Shown in pieces: positions 5,604 to 28,073 of a stretch of DNA of 61,178 nucleotides; within the stretch, counting starts at the first letter, position 1, and every line of letters starts with the position of its first letter. A model generated the notes under the pieces. The model saw only the letters and a list, made by a program, of their open reading frames with translations. It was not told where the DNA came from and did no database searches. The stretch is from Paludibacteraceae bacterium (GTDB lineage Bacteria; Bacteroidota; Bacteroidia; Bacteroidales; Paludibacteraceae): contig JAILLP010000017.1 in the NCBI GenBank assembly GCA_024693065.1, positions 1-61,178 of the forward strand. Reading direction: 5' to 3'. The position numbers and the translations under genes were made by a program.

Positions 5604-5846
5604 ATGAACTTAGTTTCTGGAATGATAGTAAATGATTCTGGGTATGTGTTCAATTCCATGACGGGTGAGAGCTTCTCCATAAACCAGACGGCGAGGTTGG
5701 TTTTAACCTTGCTAGGGGAGGGATGCTCCAAAACGGATATATATAACCGCCTCTTGTCGGAGTATGATGTGGAGGCTTCCTCTTTGGAGGCTGACGTGGA
5801 TGATTTCTTTTATTTGTTGAGGAAATATAGAATCTTAGTGGACTGA
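5604..5846 (+). CDS. PqqD-like protein (RiPP recognition element)
   Basis: The small protein (80 residues) has the PqqD layout: a beta hairpin (GMIVNDSGYVFNSMTGESFSI), the helix NQTARLVLTLLGEG, then winged-helix-like helices (DIYNRLLSEYDV, DVDDFFYLLRKYRI). PqqD-type domains bind leader peptides of ribosomally made natural products and present them to modifying enzymes. No radical SAM enzyme or short precursor gene is nearby; the partners here are an ATP-grasp ligase and a decarboxylase with a leader-like N-terminus. Its stop overlaps the next start as TGATG, so the two are translationally coupled. First gene of a four-gene operon. Confidence 0.85.
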   Translation: MNLVSGMIVNDSGYVFNSMTGESFSINQTARLVLTLLGEGCSKTDIYNRLLSEYDVEASSLEADVDDFFYLLRKYRILVD

Positions 5847-6886
5847 TGAGAAACTTGGTGGTGGCGATAAGTGGAATGAATGCGACGGACAACCCGGGGC
5901 CGGGGGTCGGGGTCGCCAGAAGCCTGAGACAGTCTGGTTTCGCCGATTTCCGTGTCGTGGGCTTTTGCTACGGTTCGTTGGAGCCGGGCGCCTACATGCA
6001 GGACATCACGGACGTGTCGTATCTGCTGCCTTTCCCTAGCGAGGGTATGGTGACATTCCTGGATAGGCTGCGTTACATCCATGAACGGGAACATATAGAC
6101 ATCATCATCCCGAACCTGGACGCCGAACTGTTCATCTACATCAAGATCAAGGATAAACTGGAGGAGATGGGTATCCGCCTCTGCTTGCCCACTATCGAGC
6201 AGTTCGACTCCAGACAGAAATACCGCTTGCCGGACTTCGGGGAGAAGATGGGCTTCAGTGTTCCGAAGAGCTTCCGGTGCAATACGGTGGAGGACCTCCT
6301 CTCGGCGGAGAACGAGTTGCGGTACCCCATCATGATGAAGGGCAACTTCTATGAGGCCTATTATGCGGGTTACAGGGAACAGGCGGTCACCTATTTCTGG
6401 AACCTTTTGGCCAAATGGGGAGCTCCGGTCATCGCCCAACAATACATCTCCGGTGGAGAGTTCAATGTCGTGGGCGTGGGGGACGGAAAGGGCAACCTCA
6501 TCTCTTGCGTGCCGATGCATAAGCAGTTCATCACCGACAAGGGAAAGGCTTGGGCGGGGGTCACCATCAAGGACGACCAGCTGATGGATTCGGCCCGCCG
6601 CTTCGTCGAGACCACCCGTTGGATGGGCGCTTTTGAACTGGAACTATTGAGGGGGGACGATGGTGTCCTCTATCTTATCGAGATAAACCCTAGGATGCCG
6701 GCTTGGGTCTATTTGGCCACTGCGGCAGGGGAGAACATACCGGAACAGATCGTCCAATTGGCTTTGGGGGAGACGCCTAGCCAGTTTGACCATTACGATG
6801 TGGGGAAGATGTTCATCCGTTATTCCTGGGACATGGTGGTTAACCAATCTGAGTTCGGACAGTTCTCAGTGAAAGGAGAGAAGTGA
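5846..6886 (+). CDS. ATP-grasp ligase
   Basis: A 346-residue ATP-grasp enzyme; the family joins a carboxylate, via an acyl-phosphate, to an amine or thiol with ATP hydrolysis. The N-terminal pre-ATP-grasp part contains a glycine-rich stretch (GPGVGVARSLR) and IIPNLDAELFIY. The ATP-binding lysine region is YPIMMKGNFYEAYYAG, followed by PVIAQQYISGGEFNVVG. The metal-binding end is LYLIEINPRMPAW, with the ExN signature. The architecture resembles carbamoyl-phosphate-synthase-like ATP-grasps. Substrates cannot be read from sequence. It sits between the PqqD-like gene (1-base overlap) and the decarboxylase (1-base gap), which argues for one pathway. Confidence 0.9.
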   Translation: MRNLVVAISGMNATDNPGPGVGVARSLRQSGFADFRVVGFCYGSLEPGAYMQDITDVSYLLPFPSEGMVTFLDRLRYIHEREHIDIIIPNLDAELFIYIKIKDKLEEMGIRLCLPTIEQFDSRQKYRLPDFGEKMGFSVPKSFRCNTVEDLLSAENELRYPIMMKGNFYEAYYAGYREQAVTYFWNLLAKWGAPVIAQQYISGGEFNVVGVGDGKGNLISCVPMHKQFITDKGKAWAGVTIKDDQLMDSARRFVETTRWMGAFELELLRGDDGVLYLIEINPRMPAWVYLATAAGENIPEQIVQLALGETPSQFDHYDVGKMFIRYSWDMVVNQSEFGQFSVKGEK

Positions 6887-6887
6887 T

Positions 6888-8231
6888 ATGGAAAAGAAGA
6901 AATACGAAAGACCGATGTTGAAACGGATCGTTCCGACGATGCCGGGCAAGACGGGCCAGAACGTGGCGGTGGTCGCTCAGACCGAGATTGACGGTGTGGG
7001 CTTGGTCTGCCTGCGTAGCCGGTTCGGCTCTCCTCTGTTCGTCTTTTCCGAGCGGACGCTGCGGAAGAACATGCGCGAGGCCGTGAGGGCTTTCTCCACA
7101 CGCTATCCCGAGGTGCGTTTCGCATGGTCCTACAAGACGAATTACCTGAACACGATCTGCCGCATCTTCCACGAGGAGGGTGCCATGGCGGAGGTGGTCT
7201 CCGGCTTCGAATACGACAAGGCCCTCGCAAACGGGGTGCCTTCCAACCTTATCATCTTCAACGGTCCCGCTAAGAGCGAACAGGACTTGCTCAGGGCCAT
7301 CGAGGGGGATAGCCTGATCCATATCGACAACACGGAGGAACTTCGCATATTGACCAATCTCTCCATAGAGAAAAACATAAAACCGAGGGTGGCCCTCCGT
7401 GTGAACATGGACGTGGGAATCTATCCTCCGTGGAACCGCTTCGGCTTCAACCTGGAGTCGGGGCAGGCATGGGACGCTCTGGAGAAAATCGCTTCGGAGG
7501 GTAAACTGAACTGCGTGGGCTTGCATTGCCACATCGGCACGTTCATCCAGACGGCCGACGCCTACCGCATCGAGGCGGAGAAACTGGCCCTCTTGGCGAA
7601 GGATTCGATGGAAAAACTGGGCTTGCCAATCTCCTATGTGGACATGGGTGGCGGCTTTGCCTCCAAGAATACGTTGAAGTCGTCTTACCTGACGGGCGAG
7701 GACCTCTGCCCGACGTTCGACGACTATGCGGAGACCATCACCAGCGTCTTCCGTACCATGAAATTCCCTGACGGTAAACGGCTGCGCATCGTGCTGGAGA
7801 CGGGACGGGCGTTGGTCGATAACGCAGGTTTTCTGCTCACCTCCGTCATCACGAACAAACGCATGGCGGACGGTCGCCTGAACACGGTGATCGACGCGGG
7901 CGTGAACTTGCTCTTCACCTCCTTCTGGTACAACCATAAGGTGACCGCTACCTATGAGAGCACCTCGCAGGTCGAGCCTACGATGTTGTGCGGACCGTTG
8001 TGCATGAACATAGACGTGATCCGCGACAATGTGATGCTCCCTCCGTTGAAGAGGAATGACCTGCTGCTGATCCATAACGTGGGCGCCTATAACGTGACGC
8101 AGTGGATGCAGTTCATCACCATGCGGCCTAAGGTGGTGATGGTGAAGGAGAACGGTGAAGTCATCTTGTTGCGTGACGCTGAATGCTTGAACGATGTCAA
8201 TGGAGTGGAGGATAGATGCACGGTGAACTGA
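6888..8231 (+). CDS. PLP-dependent decarboxylase (DapDC/ornithine DC fold III) with leader-like N-terminus
   Basis: The 447-residue protein is related to diaminopimelate/ornithine/arginine decarboxylases. Catalytic features are intact: PLP lysine in WSYKTNYLNT (K83), the SGFEYDKAL block, HCHIG, the phosphate-binding VDMGGGF, ETGRAL, and the C-terminal active-site cysteine in CGPLCMNID followed by VGAYN. It is unlikely to be lysA because it lies in a peptide-modification-like operon and carries an extra N-terminus. Residues 1-22 read KKYERPML near the start, giving Y6-x-x-P9-x-L11. That is the YxxPxL pattern through which lasso-peptide leaders bind their recognition element. Its 3' end overlaps the transporter gene by 16 bases. 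Confidence 0.92.
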   Translation: MEKKKYERPMLKRIVPTMPGKTGQNVAVVAQTEIDGVGLVCLRSRFGSPLFVFSERTLRKNMREAVRAFSTRYPEVRFAWSYKTNYLNTICRIFHEEGAMAEVVSGFEYDKALANGVPSNLIIFNGPAKSEQDLLRAIEGDSLIHIDNTEELRILTNLSIEKNIKPRVALRVNMDVGIYPPWNRFGFNLESGQAWDALEKIASEGKLNCVGLHCHIGTFIQTADAYRIEAEKLALLAKDSMEKLGLPISYVDMGGGFASKNTLKSSYLTGEDLCPTFDDYAETITSVFRTMKFPDGKRLRIVLETGRALVDNAGFLLTSVITNKRMADGRLNTVIDAGVNLLFTSFWYNHKVTATYESTSQVEPTMLCGPLCMNIDVIRDNVMLPPLKRNDLLLIHNVGAYNVTQWMQFITMRPKVVMVKENGEVILLRDAECLNDVNGVEDRCTVN

Positions 8232-10363
8232 AGACATTCCTCAGAAGTGTGCGGAACAGCTACTCCGCATTGGTCTTCTCCCGCGATTCGTGGGTGGGGA
8301 TCGCCTTGCTGTTGGTGACGTTCCTCTATCCGATGTCTGGCCTGTGCGGTTTGCTTTGCTGCTTGCTCGTGAATGGGCTCGCTATGCTCTTGTCCCTCAA
8401 TCGATTCAAGATGGTGAACGGCCTTTATGGCTTCAATGCGGTCATCGTGGGTGTTGCGGTCGGAACGCTTTATCCGTGCGGTGTCTCGTTGTTCGTCATG
8501 CTCTTCGCCCTTTCGATCATGGTGCTCCTGCTCATAGCGGGTTTGGACGGTATCCTGGAGAAATATCACCTGCCTTATTTGGTCTTCCCTTTCCTCTTCT
8601 GCCTATGGACGGTTCTACTGTTGACGCAGCAAATGGACGGGGAGATCGTCTTCGATTGTGTCTTTGGCGAGCATGACAGTATGCTCTCGCTGGGGGGCTT
8701 CTCGTTGTCGACCCTTTCCGACCACCTCGTTTGGGTCTCCCTTCCGAAGTGGCTGACCAGCTATTTCTTAGGCTTGAGCTGCATCCTTTTCCGCCAGGAT
8801 GTCATGGTGGGTTTCCTCTTGGCGGTGATCTTGTTGTGCTATTCCAGAATAGCCTTCCTCTATACCTCCGTCAGCCATCTCCTTGCCTATTTCCTCTATG
8901 TTTCCATGGGCGGGGAGCTCTTCCATATCCCTTATGTGTGCTTCGGCTTCAATTTCATCCTGACGTCGCTCGCCTTGGGTTGTAGTTATTTGGTGCCTTC
9001 CAAGAGTTCCTTCTTGTGGTCTTTGCTGTTGGTGCCGGTGCAGTTCATCGTGGTGTATGCCTCTACCAGGCTGTTGACGTATCTCTATTTGCCTACATTC
9101 TCCCTCTCCTTCTGTTTGGTGAGCCTTCTTTTCCTCACCCTGCTGAAGATGCGTGGAACTATTTCATCCCCTACGCTCTCTTATTTCCTGGAACGTACGC
9201 CGGAGGAGAACCTGTACCAACATCGTACGGGTGTGAATCGCTTCAAATGGTATGGCTATCAAGCCTTTGACTTGCCTTTCTGCGGGGTATGGAGCGTCTC
9301 GCAGGGCCCTCACGGGGCCTATACCCACAAGGATCAATGGGCGGATGCCTGGGACTTTGTCGTGGAGGTGGAGGGTCGCCAGTTCCGTGGGGATGGTACC
9401 CGCTTGGAGGATTACTACTGTTATGGCAAACCTGTGATGTCGCCTGGCGAGGGTGTTGTGGTCGCTGTCGAGAACAGTGTCGATGACAATTCTGTGGGGG
9501 TGAGCAACGAGGTGCAGAATTGGGGCAATTATGTGATTATCAAGCATGGTGAGGATCTCTATTCCTTGCTGGCCCACTTGAAGCGGGATTCGTTCCGGTG
9601 TGTGGTGGGGCAGCAGGTCGCTAAGGGGGAGGAGTTGGCGCTGTGTGGCAACACGGGTCTCTCTCCATATCCGCACCTGCATTTCCAGTTCCAGGCTTTG
9701 CCGTATGCGGGTGCGCCTACGCTCTCGTATCCTTTGGTCAATTACATGGAGATGGGGGCGGACGGTTCCCGTCTGTGCTCTTGCGGAATGCCTGGCGAGG
9801 GTAGTTCTCTCTTCAACCTGAATGGTAAGAATGCGCGGCCTTTCGGATTCCTCTTCGTGAAGGGGGCGCGGTTCGTCTCTTCGTCCGATAGATTTGGCGA
9901 GGCGGAGTGGGTCGTTTGCGAGGAGTATGGCTATTCTTTCTTCTATGACGAGCGGAATGATTCCAAGGCATGGTTCTCCTGCAAGGAGGGTGTGTTCGAA
10001 TTTCAACGATATGAGGGCGACCGTAAGTGTGCGCTCTACTATTTCTTCCTCTCTCATTTCAAGACGGTTGTGGGGGATGTGGAGCATTGGAAGCTGACGG
10101 ACGAGATTCCTCTCTCCATCCGAAGGGCTGGGTTTATGGGCTATCTGCAGGATCTGGTCGCACCATTCTTCTCTTTCGTGGAAAACTCCTTCCAAGCTGA
10201 TGGGAACTTAGCCGGTGGCGGGATGCGCTCGTCGGTCTCCACCTCCGTGAAGGGTAGGGTGGTTAGCTCGTTGAACTTCCATACGGTATGCAAACCGGGC
10301 AATTCGCTGGAGATAGCGGTGGAGGGCGCTGAACCGTTTAGGGTGACGGTGAAGGGCAGATGA
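8216..10363 (+). CDS. Urea-transporter-family membrane protein fused to an M23 (LytM) peptidase domain
   Basis: The 715-residue protein has two parts. Residues ~15-325 form a multi-pass membrane region with urea-transporter features (LLVNGLAMLLSL, GLYGFNAVIVGVAVGTLYP). Residues ~340-510 form an M23 metallopeptidase domain with zinc ligands intact: H371 and D380 in THKDQWADAWDF, and H487/H489 in PHLHFQF. The last ~200 residues are not recognised. M23 domains cleave peptidoglycan cross-links or related peptides. Urea transporters are channel-like and pass small neutral solutes. The start overlaps the decarboxylase end by 16 bases, so it probably moves or acts on the pathway product. Membrane placement is inferred from hydrophobicity. 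Confidence 0.88.
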   Translation: MHGELKTFLRSVRNSYSALVFSRDSWVGIALLLVTFLYPMSGLCGLLCCLLVNGLAMLLSLNRFKMVNGLYGFNAVIVGVAVGTLYPCGVSLFVMLFALSIMVLLLIAGLDGILEKYHLPYLVFPFLFCLWTVLLLTQQMDGEIVFDCVFGEHDSMLSLGGFSLSTLSDHLVWVSLPKWLTSYFLGLSCILFRQDVMVGFLLAVILLCYSRIAFLYTSVSHLLAYFLYVSMGGELFHIPYVCFGFNFILTSLALGCSYLVPSKSSFLWSLLLVPVQFIVVYASTRLLTYLYLPTFSLSFCLVSLLFLTLLKMRGTISSPTLSYFLERTPEENLYQHRTGVNRFKWYGYQAFDLPFCGVWSVSQGPHGAYTHKDQWADAWDFVVEVEGRQFRGDGTRLEDYYCYGKPVMSPGEGVVVAVENSVDDNSVGVSNEVQNWGNYVIIKHGEDLYSLLAHLKRDSFRCVVGQQVAKGEELALCGNTGLSPYPHLHFQFQALPYAGAPTLSYPLVNYMEMGADGSRLCSCGMPGEGSSLFNLNGKNARPFGFLFVKGARFVSSSDRFGEAEWVVCEEYGYSFFYDERNDSKAWFSCKEGVFEFQRYEGDRKCALYYFFLSHFKTVVGDVEHWKLTDEIPLSIRRAGFMGYLQDLVAPFFSFVENSFQADGNLAGGGMRSSVSTSVKGRVVSSLNFHTVCKPGNSLEIAVEGAEPFRVTVKGR

Positions 10364-10477: not shown

Positions 10478-10771
10478 ATGAATGCGAATGTTAGAAATAT
10501 TATCGTCAACTATTTCAAGAACCAACCGGTGGAAAAGGCTTGGCTCTTTGGCTCCTATTCCCGTGGGGAAGAGACGGAAGATAGTGATGTTGATATACTG
10601 GTCACATTCAAAAGTGGGGAAAGAATAGGATTGAAGTATGCCGCTATGATTTGTGATTTGGAAGACCTTTTGCATAAGAAAGTGGATATGGTCGTGGAAG
10701 GGACGCTACTGCCATTTGCTCAAAAAAGTGCGGATTCCGATAAAGTGTTGATATATGAAAGAGGAATGTAG
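10478..10771 (+). CDS. mntA: MntA-type antitoxin, minimal nucleotidyltransferase
   Basis: A 97-residue minimal nucleotidyltransferase with the full GSx10DxD signature (GSYSRGEETEDSDVDILV) that binds metal and ATP. In characterised MntA-HepT (type VII) systems, MntA neutralises its HEPN toxin by adding AMP groups to a tyrosine near the toxin's RNase site. The third carboxylate is likely the Asp of KKVDMVV. Its 3' end overlaps the HEPN gene by 17 bases, the usual antitoxin-toxin arrangement. The function is inferred from the family; the toxin's target tyrosine is present. Confidence 0.9.
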   Translation: MNANVRNIIVNYFKNQPVEKAWLFGSYSRGEETEDSDVDILVTFKSGERIGLKYAAMICDLEDLLHKKVDMVVEGTLLPFAQKSADSDKVLIYERGM

Positions 10772-11108
10772 GGACAAAGGAAGGTTGGAGCATATGATGA
10801 AATCCATTGAGAAAGTGTATGATTACACTAATGGATTGGAATATGAATCTTTTTCTGCGGATTCCTTACGTCTGCATGCAACGATGTATAATGTCCAAAT
10901 CATAGGTGAGGCTGTTTGCAAACTGACCAACGAGTTTAAGGCAAATCACCCGAATACGAATTGGCGTGTCATTGAAAAAATGAGACATATCCTAGTCCAT
11001 GATTATTATCAGATTGACACTGCGATCCTTTGGGATGTCATCAAAGTGGATTTGCCTGAGTTGGAAAGACAATTAAATGAATATATTAGCGAATATCCCA
11101 CCAAATGA
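10755..11108 (+). CDS. hepT: HepT-type toxin, HEPN (DUF86) RNase
   Basis: A 117-residue all-helical HEPN protein. The motif Rx4HxY is exact in MRHILVHDYYQID: R and H form the RNase active site and the tyrosine two residues after the His is the AMPylation site used by MntA in studied pairs. The start at 10755 lies inside the antitoxin gene; an ATG at 10794 (MMKSIEKVY) is a possible alternative. HepT family members cleave tRNA or mRNA when not modified. The pair has its own promoter and ends ~110 bases before the four-helix-bundle gene. Confidence 0.9.
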   Translation: MKEECRDKGRLEHMMKSIEKVYDYTNGLEYESFSADSLRLHATMYNVQIIGEAVCKLTNEFKANHPNTNWRVIEKMRHILVHDYYQIDTAILWDVIKVDLPELERQLNEYISEYPTK

Positions 11109-11220: not shown

Positions 11221-11766
11221 ATGAAGGAAGAATTGATACCTCACAGAGGTAATTACAAGAAATTGCTCTCGTATCAAAAGACGGATGTGATTTACTGCCT
11301 GACTTACTACTTCGTGGAGCACTATTTGCGGCGTAACGACCGTACTTGCGACCAGATGATTCAGGCTGCCCGATCCGGCAAACAGAACATCATTGAGGGA
11401 TGTGCTGCCAGTAGCACAAGTGCCAAGACGGAGATCAAATTGGTAAATGTGGCGAAAGCTAGTCTGCAGGAATTGCTCGAGGATTACGAGGATTACCTAA
11501 AGACTCGTGGCCATAGGCAATGGGAAGAGGATTCTGTGGAATTGCTGAAAATGCGTGAACTGGGCACCCGACACAACGACACTGCCTTTTTTATGAATAT
11601 TGCCCAAACACGCCCTCCTGAGACAATCGCCAACATGTGCATCGTGCTGATAAAACAGGCTGACTACCTGCTTTTCAGACAGTTGAAACGCCTGGAACGG
11701 GATTTCTTGGCTAATGGTGGTTTTAACGAAAGGATGTACCGCCTACGCTCAAAGCGAAGGGAATAG
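11221..11766 (+). CDS. Four-helix-bundle (S23/IVS-related) protein with suffix domain
   Basis: A 181-residue protein of the Bacteroidetes four-helix-bundle group, related to the proteins encoded in 23S rRNA intervening sequences. Typical stretches are LSYQKTDVIYCLTYYFVEHYL, then the family hallmark MIQAARSGKQNIIEG and KASLQELLEDYEDYL. A C-terminal extension (MCIVLIKQADYLLFRQLKRLERDF) fits the four-helix-bundle suffix type. The molecular role of the family is unknown. It is directly followed by an eight-unit 9-base tandem array (11783-11855), a neighbour I believe is common for this group, but I cannot check that here. Confidence 0.8.
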   Translation: MKEELIPHRGNYKKLLSYQKTDVIYCLTYYFVEHYLRRNDRTCDQMIQAARSGKQNIIEGCAASSTSAKTEIKLVNVAKASLQELLEDYEDYLKTRGHRQWEEDSVELLKMRELGTRHNDTAFFMNIAQTRPPETIANMCIVLIKQADYLLFRQLKRLERDFLANGGFNERMYRLRSKRRE

Positions 11767-25653: not shown

Positions 25654-27450
25654 ATGGCAAGGAACAATTTTTTCATAGGGTTACTGGTTTACATCTTGGC
25701 TATGCCTATGCTTGCATGGGGTGAAGATTGTTTCGGTCCGATGGATGAAAGGTACAATGACTTTCTCTCGGAGCGGGCGATGGGTGTTTCCTTGTATGAT
25801 CGAGGCAAGTATATGGAGGCGATCCCTCATTTCGAGAAGGCGTACGAGATGTGCCCGATGGATTCTGTCCTCAATGAATATCTCTATTTCTCCTACAAGA
25901 ATTCTCTCCGTTCCATGGATGCCAATCGCATGTTTTATGGCGTGCCTGCCCGTTCTGTGGCTTTGTACGGATTGAAGCGCAGCAAACCTATCTCTTCCAT
26001 CTATGCGGAGGGGGGCGCTCTCTTCGCGGACAGCAAGACGGCTTGGGACGATTCCTACATCTACTTTGAACGCTATCTTGTCGGCAATGGTGGCTTCGCT
26101 TCCGTGGACGTGGACAATGAGTTGGGCTCCGTATGTGAACTGAACCATCATGTGGGCATCACTTCCAGGAACAATCCTGTAGAGATGAAGGGCTCCAATT
26201 CGTCGTATTTCAACTTGAGATCCAAATATGTGGGGGTCGAATATGAGGTTTCCGCGAAATTCAACGTCTCTTCCCGCTGGAAGGTGATGCCGTACGCTCG
26301 TGTCAGTCATGAGTCGTACGATGAGGTACGCTTCTTCTTGGATACGGTCGACGCCGCCTCTTCCGGTGGAAATTCGTTCGGGGCATGGAACTTCCCATGG
26401 AACCTGACCCCTGAAATCACACAAAGGGAGGATGACCCGAATAACTCTTCTTCTGACGGAATAGCCCGGGATGAGAAGGGCCAAAACCAGGTGGAAGGGG
26501 ATCCGGCGAATGGCGGTGCGGGAAATGATGGAGGAGAAAACCCTGGTGGCAATAATAATAACAATAACAATAACAACTACAATAACTACAACAACTACAA
26601 TAACTACAACAACTACAACAACAATTATTGGCAGAATGGCTCAGAATGGCAGGGCTTCGATTCCGCTGGTGACAAAAATGCCAATACCAATGGGGATGAG
26701 TCGCAGGGCGGACAAAACTACAACTATGATTATAATGGCTTCTATAATAATTATAGCAACTATGTGGGGTGGTACAATCCGTGGTGGTCTTATCTCTATA
26801 ACCCTTACGGACAATATTACGGGAACTACACTTTCCCTCAGTTTACACCGCAGTTCTGGCAGACCCTCTCCAACTCCACGTACAGGTATAGACATTCTTC
26901 CACGAGACATAGCCGTATGGACTTCCTGGTGGGTTGCTTGGTCTCCTACACCTACGGTAAACACGTTGGGGAGTTCAGTGCCTCTTTCTTCAGAGGTGAG
27001 ACTCTGAAGACAATTCAGACCAACCTTTCCTATTGTTTTTATCCGTTTGGAAACCTGAACTTCTATATTTCGCCGAAAGTTTCGTATATTTGGCGTGGTA
27101 ATGATTACTATCCGATGGGGGAGCTGCCGGGAAACTGGATCGGTGAGGCCGAAGTTGGTGGCAAGTTGATGAACCGTCTGTGGGGAAGTGTTTCCTACCT
27201 TCATGGCAATCTTTGCGATTCCCATGAACGGGTGAGCCATACGTTCTATTCCTTGTCCTGTGAGACAAAGTTCAGGTGCTCCGCACGCTTCATTTACTTG
27301 CTGAATGCCCATTGCGAACTGATGTTGACCTATAAGTACCTGAGGAAGGAGTCCAATCTTTTCCTTGTGGATGTGGATGGAAATGCTGGATTGAATGTGT
27401 TTAGACAGAATGATAATGTGATTGCTGGAGGTATCCAATGGAATTTTTAG
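25654..27450 (+). CDS. Putative outer-membrane barrel protein with TPR-like N-terminus and Asn/Tyr-rich insert
   Basis: A 598-residue protein with a signal peptide (LLVYILAMPMLAWG). Residues ~35-75 look like one TPR (MGVSLYDRGKYMEAIPHFEKAYEM). Residues ~100-260 and ~405-598 are rich in alternating aromatic strands and the chain ends in Phe (GIQWNF), as outer-membrane barrels do. Between them lie ~140 residues of low complexity: a Gly/Asn stretch, a run of nine Asn followed by NNY repeats (about residues 300-325, encoded by an AAC/AAT/TAC microsatellite at 26551-26622), then a Tyr/Asn/Trp-rich segment. The composition is prion-like. I do not know the family; the barrel is inferred. Cotranscribed with the next TPR gene (13-base overlap). 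Confidence 0.7.
   Translation: MARNNFFIGLLVYILAMPMLAWGEDCFGPMDERYNDFLSERAMGVSLYDRGKYMEAIPHFEKAYEMCPMDSVLNEYLYFSYKNSLRSMDANRMFYGVPARSVALYGLKRSKPISSIYAEGGALFADSKTAWDDSYIYFERYLVGNGGFASVDVDNELGSVCELNHHVGITSRNNPVEMKGSNSSYFNLRSKYVGVEYEVSAKFNVSSRWKVMPYARVSHESYDEVRFFLDTVDAASSGGNSFGAWNFPWNLTPEITQREDDPNNSSSDGIARDEKGQNQVEGDPANGGAGNDGGENPGGNNNNNNNNNYNNYNNYNNYNNYNNNYWQNGSEWQGFDSAGDKNANTNGDESQGGQNYNYDYNGFYNNYSNYVGWYNPWWSYLYNPYGQYYGNYTFPQFTPQFWQTLSNSTYRYRHSSTRHSRMDFLVGCLVSYTYGKHVGEFSASFFRGETLKTIQTNLSYCFYPFGNLNFYISPKVSYIWRGNDYYPMGELPGNWIGEAEVGGKLMNRLWGSVSYLHGNLCDSHERVSHTFYSLSCETKFRCSARFIYLLNAHCELMLTYKYLRKESNLFLVDVDGNAGLNVFRQNDNVIAGGIQWNF
26551..26622 (+). repeat. Trinucleotide-based microsatellite encoding Asn/Tyr repeats
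   Basis: A run of AAT/AAC codons passes into repeated AAC-TAC-AAT/AAC units inside the envelope gene. Because units are multiples of three, expansion or loss would change protein length without breaking the frame. Confidence 0.85.
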
Positions 27451-28073
27451 GAGGAAAAATAAATAGGTTGTTGTCATCCCTCTTCGTGGTGGGATGCCTG
27501 TTTTTCGCATCCTCCTCTTCCGCGGCGGAACCTACCCGAAGTTCCATCTTCGCGAAAAGTTACGAGTATGAATCCAACAAGCAATACGACCAGGCCATTG
27601 AGGTGCTGAAGGAGGTGAAGGCGGATATCTATGCGGTGAATCTTCGTCTAGGATGGCTCTACTACTGCAAAGGAAACTATCGGGTCTCCATCATGTATTA
27701 TTCCAAGGCGATCCAACTGAGGCCTACTTCCATTGAGGCGCGTTTCGGTTATGTGTTGCCAGCCGCTAAGATGAAGGACTGGATCAAGGTGGGGAAGCAG
27801 TATGACGCTATCCTGAAATTGGACCCTAACAACACGAAGGCGAATTATTACCGTGGACTGATGTATTTCAACGTGGGGGAATATGGCAAGGCTGAGCCTT
27901 ATTTCGATAAGGTTGAACATCTTTATCCGTTTGATTATGATATTGTTATACTTTCCGCATGGAATTCCTATTACCTGAAAAACAAGGAGAAAGCCAAGCT
28001 CCTTTTCAATCAGGCGTTGCTGATTCAGCCTAATAGCGCTTCTGCTGCGGAGGGACTCTCATTGACTAAATAA
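27438..28073 (+). CDS. Secreted TPR-repeat protein
   Basis: A 211-residue protein with a signal peptide (LLSSLFVVGCLFFASSSSAA). It has about four TPR units: residues ~40-60 (SYEYESNKQYDQAIEVLKEV), YCKGNYRVSIMYYSKAIQLRP, WIKVGKQYDAILKLDP and YFNVGEYGKAEPYFDKVEHLYP, with a further helix pair at the end. TPRs mediate protein contacts, so this is likely a periplasmic partner of the barrel protein encoded just upstream, whose end it overlaps by 13 bases. Confidence 0.85.
   Translation: MEFLGGKINRLLSSLFVVGCLFFASSSSAAEPTRSSIFAKSYEYESNKQYDQAIEVLKEVKADIYAVNLRLGWLYYCKGNYRVSIMYYSKAIQLRPTSIEARFGYVLPAAKMKDWIKVGKQYDAILKLDPNNTKANYYRGLMYFNVGEYGKAEPYFDKVEHLYPFDYDIVILSAWNSYYLKNKEKAKLLFNQALLIQPNSASAAEGLSLTK

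Follow-up and report, generated by a model that had tools for sequence, protein, structure and literature searches.

The window, i.e., the whole 61,178-nucleotide stretch of contig JAILLP010000017.1 from a Paludibacteraceae bacterium that was analysed here, carries four consecutive plus-strand genes whose gaps are a single base or overlaps (Table 1). They encode a PqqD-like RRE, an ATP-grasp ligase, a decarboxylase and a protein in which a urea-transporter-like membrane domain is joined to an M23 metallopeptidase domain (hereafter UT-M23). Most relatives have the identical order, and among relatives the operon is often followed by a protein of ca. 450 aa and a TPR protein of ca. 205 aa. Related downstream ORFs form one cluster, including the 598-aa and TPR genes of the window, in 53 loci (the decarboxylase is found in 63). 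In the window the homologues of both downstream genes lie together at 25654-28073, 15 kb beyond the operon, and gene order in relatives suggests that the 598-aa protein belongs to the system. This protein also has an Asn/Tyr-rich low-complexity stretch. UT-M23 is absent from the available downstream sequence of nine loci (L012, L016, L019, L020, L027, L043, L068, L092 and L103), some of which end shortly past the decarboxylase. The system thus defined, of four to six genes, occurs in Bacteroidota, Ignavibacteria and Chlorobi and in one locus each from assemblies of Myxococcales, Pseudomonadales and Mariprofundaceae, and the window's decarboxylase is 100% identical in four Paludibacteraceae MAG loci (yak omasum, yak rumen, buffalo rumen and sheep rumen).

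Table 1 Features of the operon, of the leader-like tag and of the downstream genes in the window
Feature	Position	Strand	Basis or remark
PqqD-like RRE, 80 aa	5604-5846	+	Pfam PqqD 44.2 bits (cut-off 23.4)
RRE N27, predicted Pro-/Tyr-binding residue	5682-5684	+	
RRE D64, predicted Pro-/Tyr-binding residue	5793-5795	+	
RRE F68, predicted Pro-/Tyr-binding residue	5805-5807	+	
ATP-grasp ligase, 346 aa, carbamoyl-phosphate-synthase-like	5846-6886	+	Family search; between PqqD-like and decarboxylase genes
Fold-III (alanine-racemase fold) PLP decarboxylase, 447 aa	6888-8231	+	Pfam Orn_Arg_deC_N / Orn_DAP_Arg_deC
Leader-like tag, decarboxylase residues 1-23	6888-6956	+	Conservation, predicted disorder, lasso register
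Y6	6903-6905	+	Lasso position -17
P9	6912-6914	+	Lasso position -14
L11	6918-6920	+	Lasso position -12
K21	6948-6950	+	Lasso position -2
G23	6954-6956	+	Lasso position +1
Linker, decarboxylase residues 24-33	6957-6986	+	Variable sequence, fixed length
UT-M23, 715 aa: urea-transporter-like membrane domain (residues 10-309), M23 metallopeptidase domain (403-493)	8216-10363	+	
Predicted secreted protein, 598 aa	25654-27450	+	In relatives a homologue follows the UT-M23 gene
TPR protein, 211 aa	27438-28073	+	In relatives comes after the homologue of the 598-aa secreted protein

Directly after the operon (10478-11108) lies a nucleotidyltransferase and HepT-like pair, likely a toxin-antitoxin module, and the ORF at 11221-11766 has a weak match (28.3 bits, cut-off 33.8) to the 23S rRNA intervening-sequence protein family. 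A scan for regulatory sites gave 3 promoter-like sites (3.4 expected) and 11 terminator-like sites (5.4 expected).

The decarboxylase ORF begins MEKKKYERPMLKRIVPTMPGKTGQN. The initial annotation had read YxxPxL at Y6, P9 and L11 and a PqqD-like gene two genes upstream, and both are borne out, the latter by its Pfam match and by the ATP-grasp gene in between. It had limited the tag to the first 22 residues (6888-6953); the tag is real, except that the conserved unit runs one codon further, to residue 23 (nt 6956). Conservation was assessed in 111 loci, which provided 102 usable decarboxylase starts, 92 of them distinct and 56 less than 80% identical. Across these 56 decarboxylases residues 3-60 are free of gaps, and P9, K21, G23, [YFW] at position 6 and [ILV] at position 11 are each present in 56/56 (E7 in 52/56 and R8 in 51/56). 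A further set of 81 homologues (< 88% identical, both genes present) was taken, after near-copy removal, from the 115 loci among L001-L138 in which decarboxylase and RRE genes were both recognised; here P and K are found in 81/81, G in 80/81, and [YFW] and [ILV] in 81/81 each. Next to PqqD and ATP-grasp genes, Y, P and L are hence conserved, as had been anticipated, with Tyr replaced by Phe or Trp in 19/81 and Leu mostly by Ile, and K21 and G23, absent from the initial annotation, are conserved as strongly as P9. Beyond the tag the sequence varies at constant length, i.e., columns 23-34 of the 56-row alignment have a mean entropy of 2.48 bits without gaps, and K21 is separated from the GSPLF block by 26 residues in 79/80 measurable rows. 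Of the 428 ORFs in the longer loci that have 100 aa or more and lack the full tag, 3 contain a loose motif, [YFW]xxPx[ILV] starting at residues 2-10, and judged by these counts the tag is not a product of chance. A whole-protein search of 200 genomes produced 51 matches with E < 1e-100, including the window's own, of which 50 align from query residue 1-5 and the remaining one (G191) starts at residue 132 and covers just 304 residues; the same picture comes from a peptide probe search, which is biased in that MEKKKYER was among its six probes.

The AlphaFold model of the decarboxylase, a monomer built from 38 sequences of which some start a few residues late, has a mean pLDDT of 87.1, and residues 7-25 fall under 50. 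All 49 sequences listed for solved relatives match from residue 28 or later, and the recognisable enzyme starts at about residue 33. A tail that is conserved yet predicted to be disordered resembles a docking motif. Its constant length without indels would also suit an ordinary structural or oligomerisation element, whose lasso-leader likeness would then be coincidental, and a monomer model could miss order that exists in a dimer. We consider this highly improbable, given that the low pLDDT falls exactly over the conserved residues, that the solved sequences begin to match only beyond them, and that the tag has a distribution of its own. It was found in none of 26 control decarboxylases (20 weaker matches of the whole-protein search, the genome's own second copy and 5 Bacillus-type loci, with several near-copies and none family-typed), and tag-profile matches in the control loci had E-values of 0.067 or worse, none at a decarboxylase start. 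Moreover, the tag (E <= 1e-5) and the lasso-type RRE subfamily (E <= 1e-15) occur in the identical 27 of 296 Bacteroidota genomes, at cuts chosen after the lists had been viewed; beyond these cuts there are 10 more genomes with the tag (E up to 0.05) and 6 more with the RRE (E up to 1e-8), without overlap. The decarboxylase and the ATP-grasp gene are present in 27/27 tag loci, and the RRE was recovered by BLAST in 21, by profile in 5 more (two being locus-edge fragments) and 3 kb away in the last. A tag that forms part of the enzyme fold was rejected on the predicted disorder and on its absence in solved relatives and in the 26 controls. Distant, untagged decarboxylases of Bacillus and Siminovitchia (L108, L110 and L111; 30-32% identical) are followed by an ATP-grasp match (21-22% identical) in loci that gave no match to the RRE, and going by gene content they are possibly an RRE-free relative of the system.

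In the lasso leaders aligned in PMC10368454 YxxPxL occupies positions -17 to -12, with -2 for the penultimate residue, usually Thr, and +1 for the start of the core, a register with which the humidimycin leader printed in PMC7168211 agrees. Counted from Y6, positions -2 and +1 are precisely where the other two invariant residues, K21 and G23, land; the tag would then correspond to a whole lasso-type leader with Lys for Thr, and not to YxxPxL alone. The -2 residue is Thr in earlier lasso leaders and Ile in those of PMC10368454 itself. A divergent tag in L135 (YTKPVL...NKFA) keeps the Lys and has Ala at +1. With G23 on the lasso core +1 position in 80/81 homologues, a peptidase might cut between residues 22 and 23, as in lasso leaders, and thereby mature, activate or release the decarboxylase, the more so as the same operon encodes an M23-type domain with five His/Asp residues conserved in 39/39. 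Such processing appears improbable to us: the -2 residue is Lys and not Thr, the M23 domain is attached to a membrane domain without a clear predicted orientation, and Transglut_core3 (PF13471), which we take to be B2, the lasso-type leader peptidase, has no match anywhere in the window's genome (2/14 control genomes were positive in this search). In addition, the hydrophobic patch tied to lasso cleavage, made up of leader Phe-6 and TfuB1 Tyr33 (PMC6784204), is missing on the leader side, where position -6 is Gly in 63/81 and Phe is not among the commonest residues. On the RRE side, profile alignment places the counterpart of Tyr33 probably at residue 23, and if this is correct (6jx3 numbering assumed) it is Ser or Thr in 48/50.

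The five invariant residues of the UT-M23 protein (H371, D380, H454, H487 and H489, each in 39/39 full-length homologues) depart from the usual M23 zinc-site spacing, HxxxD, in that H371 lies nine residues ahead of D380. Hydropathy and charge counts give no clear membrane orientation for the protein. Just ahead of its M23 domain there is also a conserved Cys402 (38/39).

A profile search of solved structures placed TbiB1 (3e-13) and TfuB1 (1e-8), each with a solved lasso-leader complex, at the top for the RRE. Its model has a pLDDT of 91, and of 160 Foldseek matches the 6 with E <= 0.001 are all lasso B1 proteins in complex with a leader (TM 0.85-0.90); by sequence and predicted fold the PqqD-like protein is a lasso-B1-type RRE, one that scores below the cut-offs of the NCBIfam lasso PqqD models (39 of 70 bits and 18.7 of 80 bits). 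The family tables of the 56 loci hold the RRE in 50, ATP-grasp in 52 and UT-M23 in 39, frames being missing or short in the others. In LppB, the leader Tyr receives a hydrogen bond from D70, N33 holds the leader's kink at Pro in place, and F74 flanks Pro and the second pocket; binding is almost lost in N33A and weakened in D70A (PMC13381572). The RRE residues N27, D64 and F68 correspond to these by equal spacings (37 and 4), a mapping made by spacing and not by structural overlay; N27 is found in 50/50 and F68 in 49/50 loci (115/115 and 113/115 in the larger set). Position 64 is of particular interest, since among 1748 column pairs in 50 loci the pair formed with tag position 6, a pairing seen by eye and then tested, has the top shuffle z-score (18.9, the next being 10.4). 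The combinations of tag residue 6 and RRE residue 64 in the 115 loci are Y/D in 89, F/Y in 20, Y/N in 2, W/D in 2 and F/H in 1, with D at RRE64 in L135, whose tag falls outside the search pattern, and with zero cases of Tyr with Tyr or Phe with Asp. Two loci in which Tyr appears among the Phe-type rows (L078 and L084) have Asn at RRE64. This pattern is what would be expected on losing a Tyr-Asp hydrogen bond. A tree of 81 of the 115 loci has 2 changes at tag6 and 3 at RRE64, and the independent-pairs test has 1-2 pairs and cannot reach significance, so shared ancestry alone could give the covariation; the second-ranked pair, tag20-RRE64, looks like a lineage signal.

No separate precursor had been seen in the initial annotation, and wider searches agree. 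The tag profile revealed no credible stand-alone tagged peptide in 296 Bacteroidota genomes, its 28 strong matches (in 27 genomes) all lying on frames of 450-496 aa and the matches in ten further genomes (E 0.0018-0.05) being partial. Around the operon, 811 small ORFs from 50 loci contained no credible precursor (best E 0.093) and no conserved small ORF, as small-ORF clusters span at most 2 loci. An Asn-synthetase-type cyclase (PF00733) is absent from the window's contig (C10), with 4 matched stretches on contigs C36 and C3; relatives were checked through their recurrent neighbours only. The locus combines a discrete B1-type RRE and a leader with YxxPxL at -17 to -12, both found in lasso systems, with the lack of Thr (rarely Ile/Val) at -2, of a short precursor with a core, of Transglut_core3 and of PF00733 in the cluster. 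A lasso peptide cluster was ruled out on Lys(-2) in 81/81, no short precursor, no peptidase family and no cyclase on the contig. Away from the operon, contig C3 carries two neighbouring frames (352 aa and 486 aa, at 117913-119590) with matches to the asparagine-synthetase family.

The decarboxylase itself retains K83 (SYKTN), HIGT 215-218, GGG 254-256, E304xGR307, GPLCMNID 369-376 and Y401, all conserved in at least 95% of sequences and presumably catalytic. Its best solved relative is the N-citrylornithine decarboxylase 7kh2 (FslC/FigC, E 3.3e-58). Among NCBIfam models the window enzyme scores just higher with lysA (224.4 bits, TIGR01048 cut-off 297.9) than with FslC (220.6 bits, NF041039 cut-off 500), and the L040 enzyme has the reverse order (FslC 237.6 bits), all scores being under the cut-offs. 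A diaminopimelate decarboxylase (LysA) was rejected on its score and on the presence of CM, as in FslC, where the only DAP decarboxylase aligned (2p3e) has CE, and FslC N-citrylornithine decarboxylase on both scores. The genome's other decarboxylase match, 29% identical, is likely its LysA, judging by sequence. BtrK, FigC, SbnH, AcsE and MccE share one clade, also with DAP decarboxylases, and within it BtrK decarboxylates glutamyl-BtrI and MccE acts on a microcin C intermediate (PMC7857480). A recurrent gene for a separate BtrI-like carrier was not found beside the operon in the loci compared.

Given the conservation, the register, the predicted disorder, the RRE family and the co-occurrence, we consider that the RRE very probably docks on the decarboxylase by binding its tail, which supports the initial annotation's suggestion that the enzyme itself is the RRE's partner. 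Our overall reading, to which we assign a probability of roughly 0.72, is that the tag is a lasso-type leader fused to an enzyme and docked by a cognate RRE, which would tether the decarboxylase and place K21-x-G23 before the active site of a partner. The flexible tail would add a beta strand to the small RRE, encoded two genes upstream, with the aromatic residue 6 and Pro9 seated in hydrophobic pockets and with N27, D64 and F68 as predicted contacts. Such docking would tether the decarboxylase to the operon machinery and bring leader positions -2 to +1 before the partner's active site, much as lasso RREs help to bring the cleavage site before their peptidase. The ATP-grasp ligase would be the most likely partner, and that the RRE presents K21 to it is a tentative proposal.

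All of the docking evidence (conservation, RRE family and fold, covariation) is shared by a simpler scheme, in which the RRE acts as an adaptor between decarboxylase and ATP-grasp ligase and keeps the two close enough for an intermediate made by the ligase to reach the decarboxylase, the tail being neither modified nor cut and K21 and G23 being contacts with the RRE or the ATP-grasp protein. In lasso systems the RRE reportedly contributes to the pocket that receives the -2 residue (PMC10368454), and a residue could thus be invariant at -2 without taking part in a reaction. However, it is not obvious why a pure dock, besides its Y/P/L pockets, should require Lys (81/81) and Gly (80/81), or a linker of fixed length (26 residues in 79/80), and we would put recruitment alone at somewhat below even odds. 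Of the two purposes raised in the initial annotation, recruitment to the ATP-grasp protein and marking of the N-terminal segment for modification, the invariant K21 and near-invariant G23 favour an event at that site over recruitment alone; since lasso RREs have a part in holding the -2 residue as well, we give an event at Lys21 and plain recruitment about equal weight.

As to what the event could be, the ATP-grasp ligase would most plausibly attach an amino acid to Lys21 by acylation of its side chain, the decarboxylase would decarboxylate this group while it is tethered, in the manner of BtrK with its carrier BtrI, and UT-M23 may release the product and pass it on. We infer this sequence of loading, tethered decarboxylation and release, and acylation of Lys21 followed by decarboxylation of the tethered group seems to us unlikely. 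Counting against Lys21 as the acceptor is that the argument for it consists of invariance and position, and that a Lys amide would need a hydrolase for its release. M23 domains of this type in other proteins hydrolyse such bonds in peptidoglycan, where the amide is formed with the side chain of DAP or Lys. In its fullest form the proposal would make the decarboxylase its own carrier, i.e., the RRE would show Lys21 to the ATP-grasp ligase, the tail would swing the amino acid into the active site and the M23 domain would free an amine or amide product beside a urea-channel-like pore, which we regard as quite unlikely.

RREs guide RiPP mining via nearby precursor peptides, and as the partner here is a full-size enzyme, this RRE would look like an orphan. 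The operon suggests that docking by RREs is also suited to whole enzymes. If the binding is true, leader-RRE recognition has been co-opted to recruit or modify enzymes, and if the enzyme is indeed its own carrier, a ribosomal leader turns it into a swinging-arm carrier instead of making a peptide. Neither this operon nor a decarboxylase with an RRE leader was found described in the open-access literature, which misses most subscription-journal papers, and the available parts of PMC10352776, PMC7470986 and PMC12710340 do not mention the system.

Among known systems, FslC/FigC (7kh2) shares with the decarboxylase the GPxCM motif where 2p3e has CE, and its match starts at query residue 41, with nothing aligned to the tag. 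The butirosin pathway offers a parallel in gene content, BtrJ being, we presume, an ATP-grasp ligase. In BtrJ/BtrK/BtrI, as here, an ATP-grasp-type ligase accompanies a fold-III PLP decarboxylase, and the amino acid on which BtrK acts is bound to a carrier. This carrier, BtrI, is a separate protein of 87 residues (PMC7857480), whereas here the sole carrier candidate found is the enzyme's own tail, and an RRE is present. The TglA-type scaffold of 3-thiaglutamate synthesis also uses a ribosomal peptide as amino-acid carrier; it relies on aminoacyl-tRNA and the peptide C-terminus (PMC9016710), and a ligase of that kind has no match among the four operon genes. The RRE LppB of the linear polyphosphorylated peptides (LPP), which recognises a YxxP leader, has Asn, Asp and Phe at the same spacings, and LPP precursors, unlike the decarboxylase, are Bacillota proteins of 35-200 aa with a conserved N-terminus and variable C-termini (PMC13381572). 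The closest likeness in the docking parts is to lasso B1 RREs with their leaders (TfuB1/FusE 6jx3; TbiB1 5v1u and 5v1v), with which the RRE shares fold, sequence family and predicted pocket residues, and the tag an aromatic residue at -17, P at -14, [LIV] at -12 and G at +1. In contrast to lasso systems, the leader here sits on a 447-residue enzyme, Thr(-2) has become Lys and Phe(-6) mostly Gly, in a genome without a lasso-type peptidase family and on a contig without an Asn-synthetase-type cyclase.
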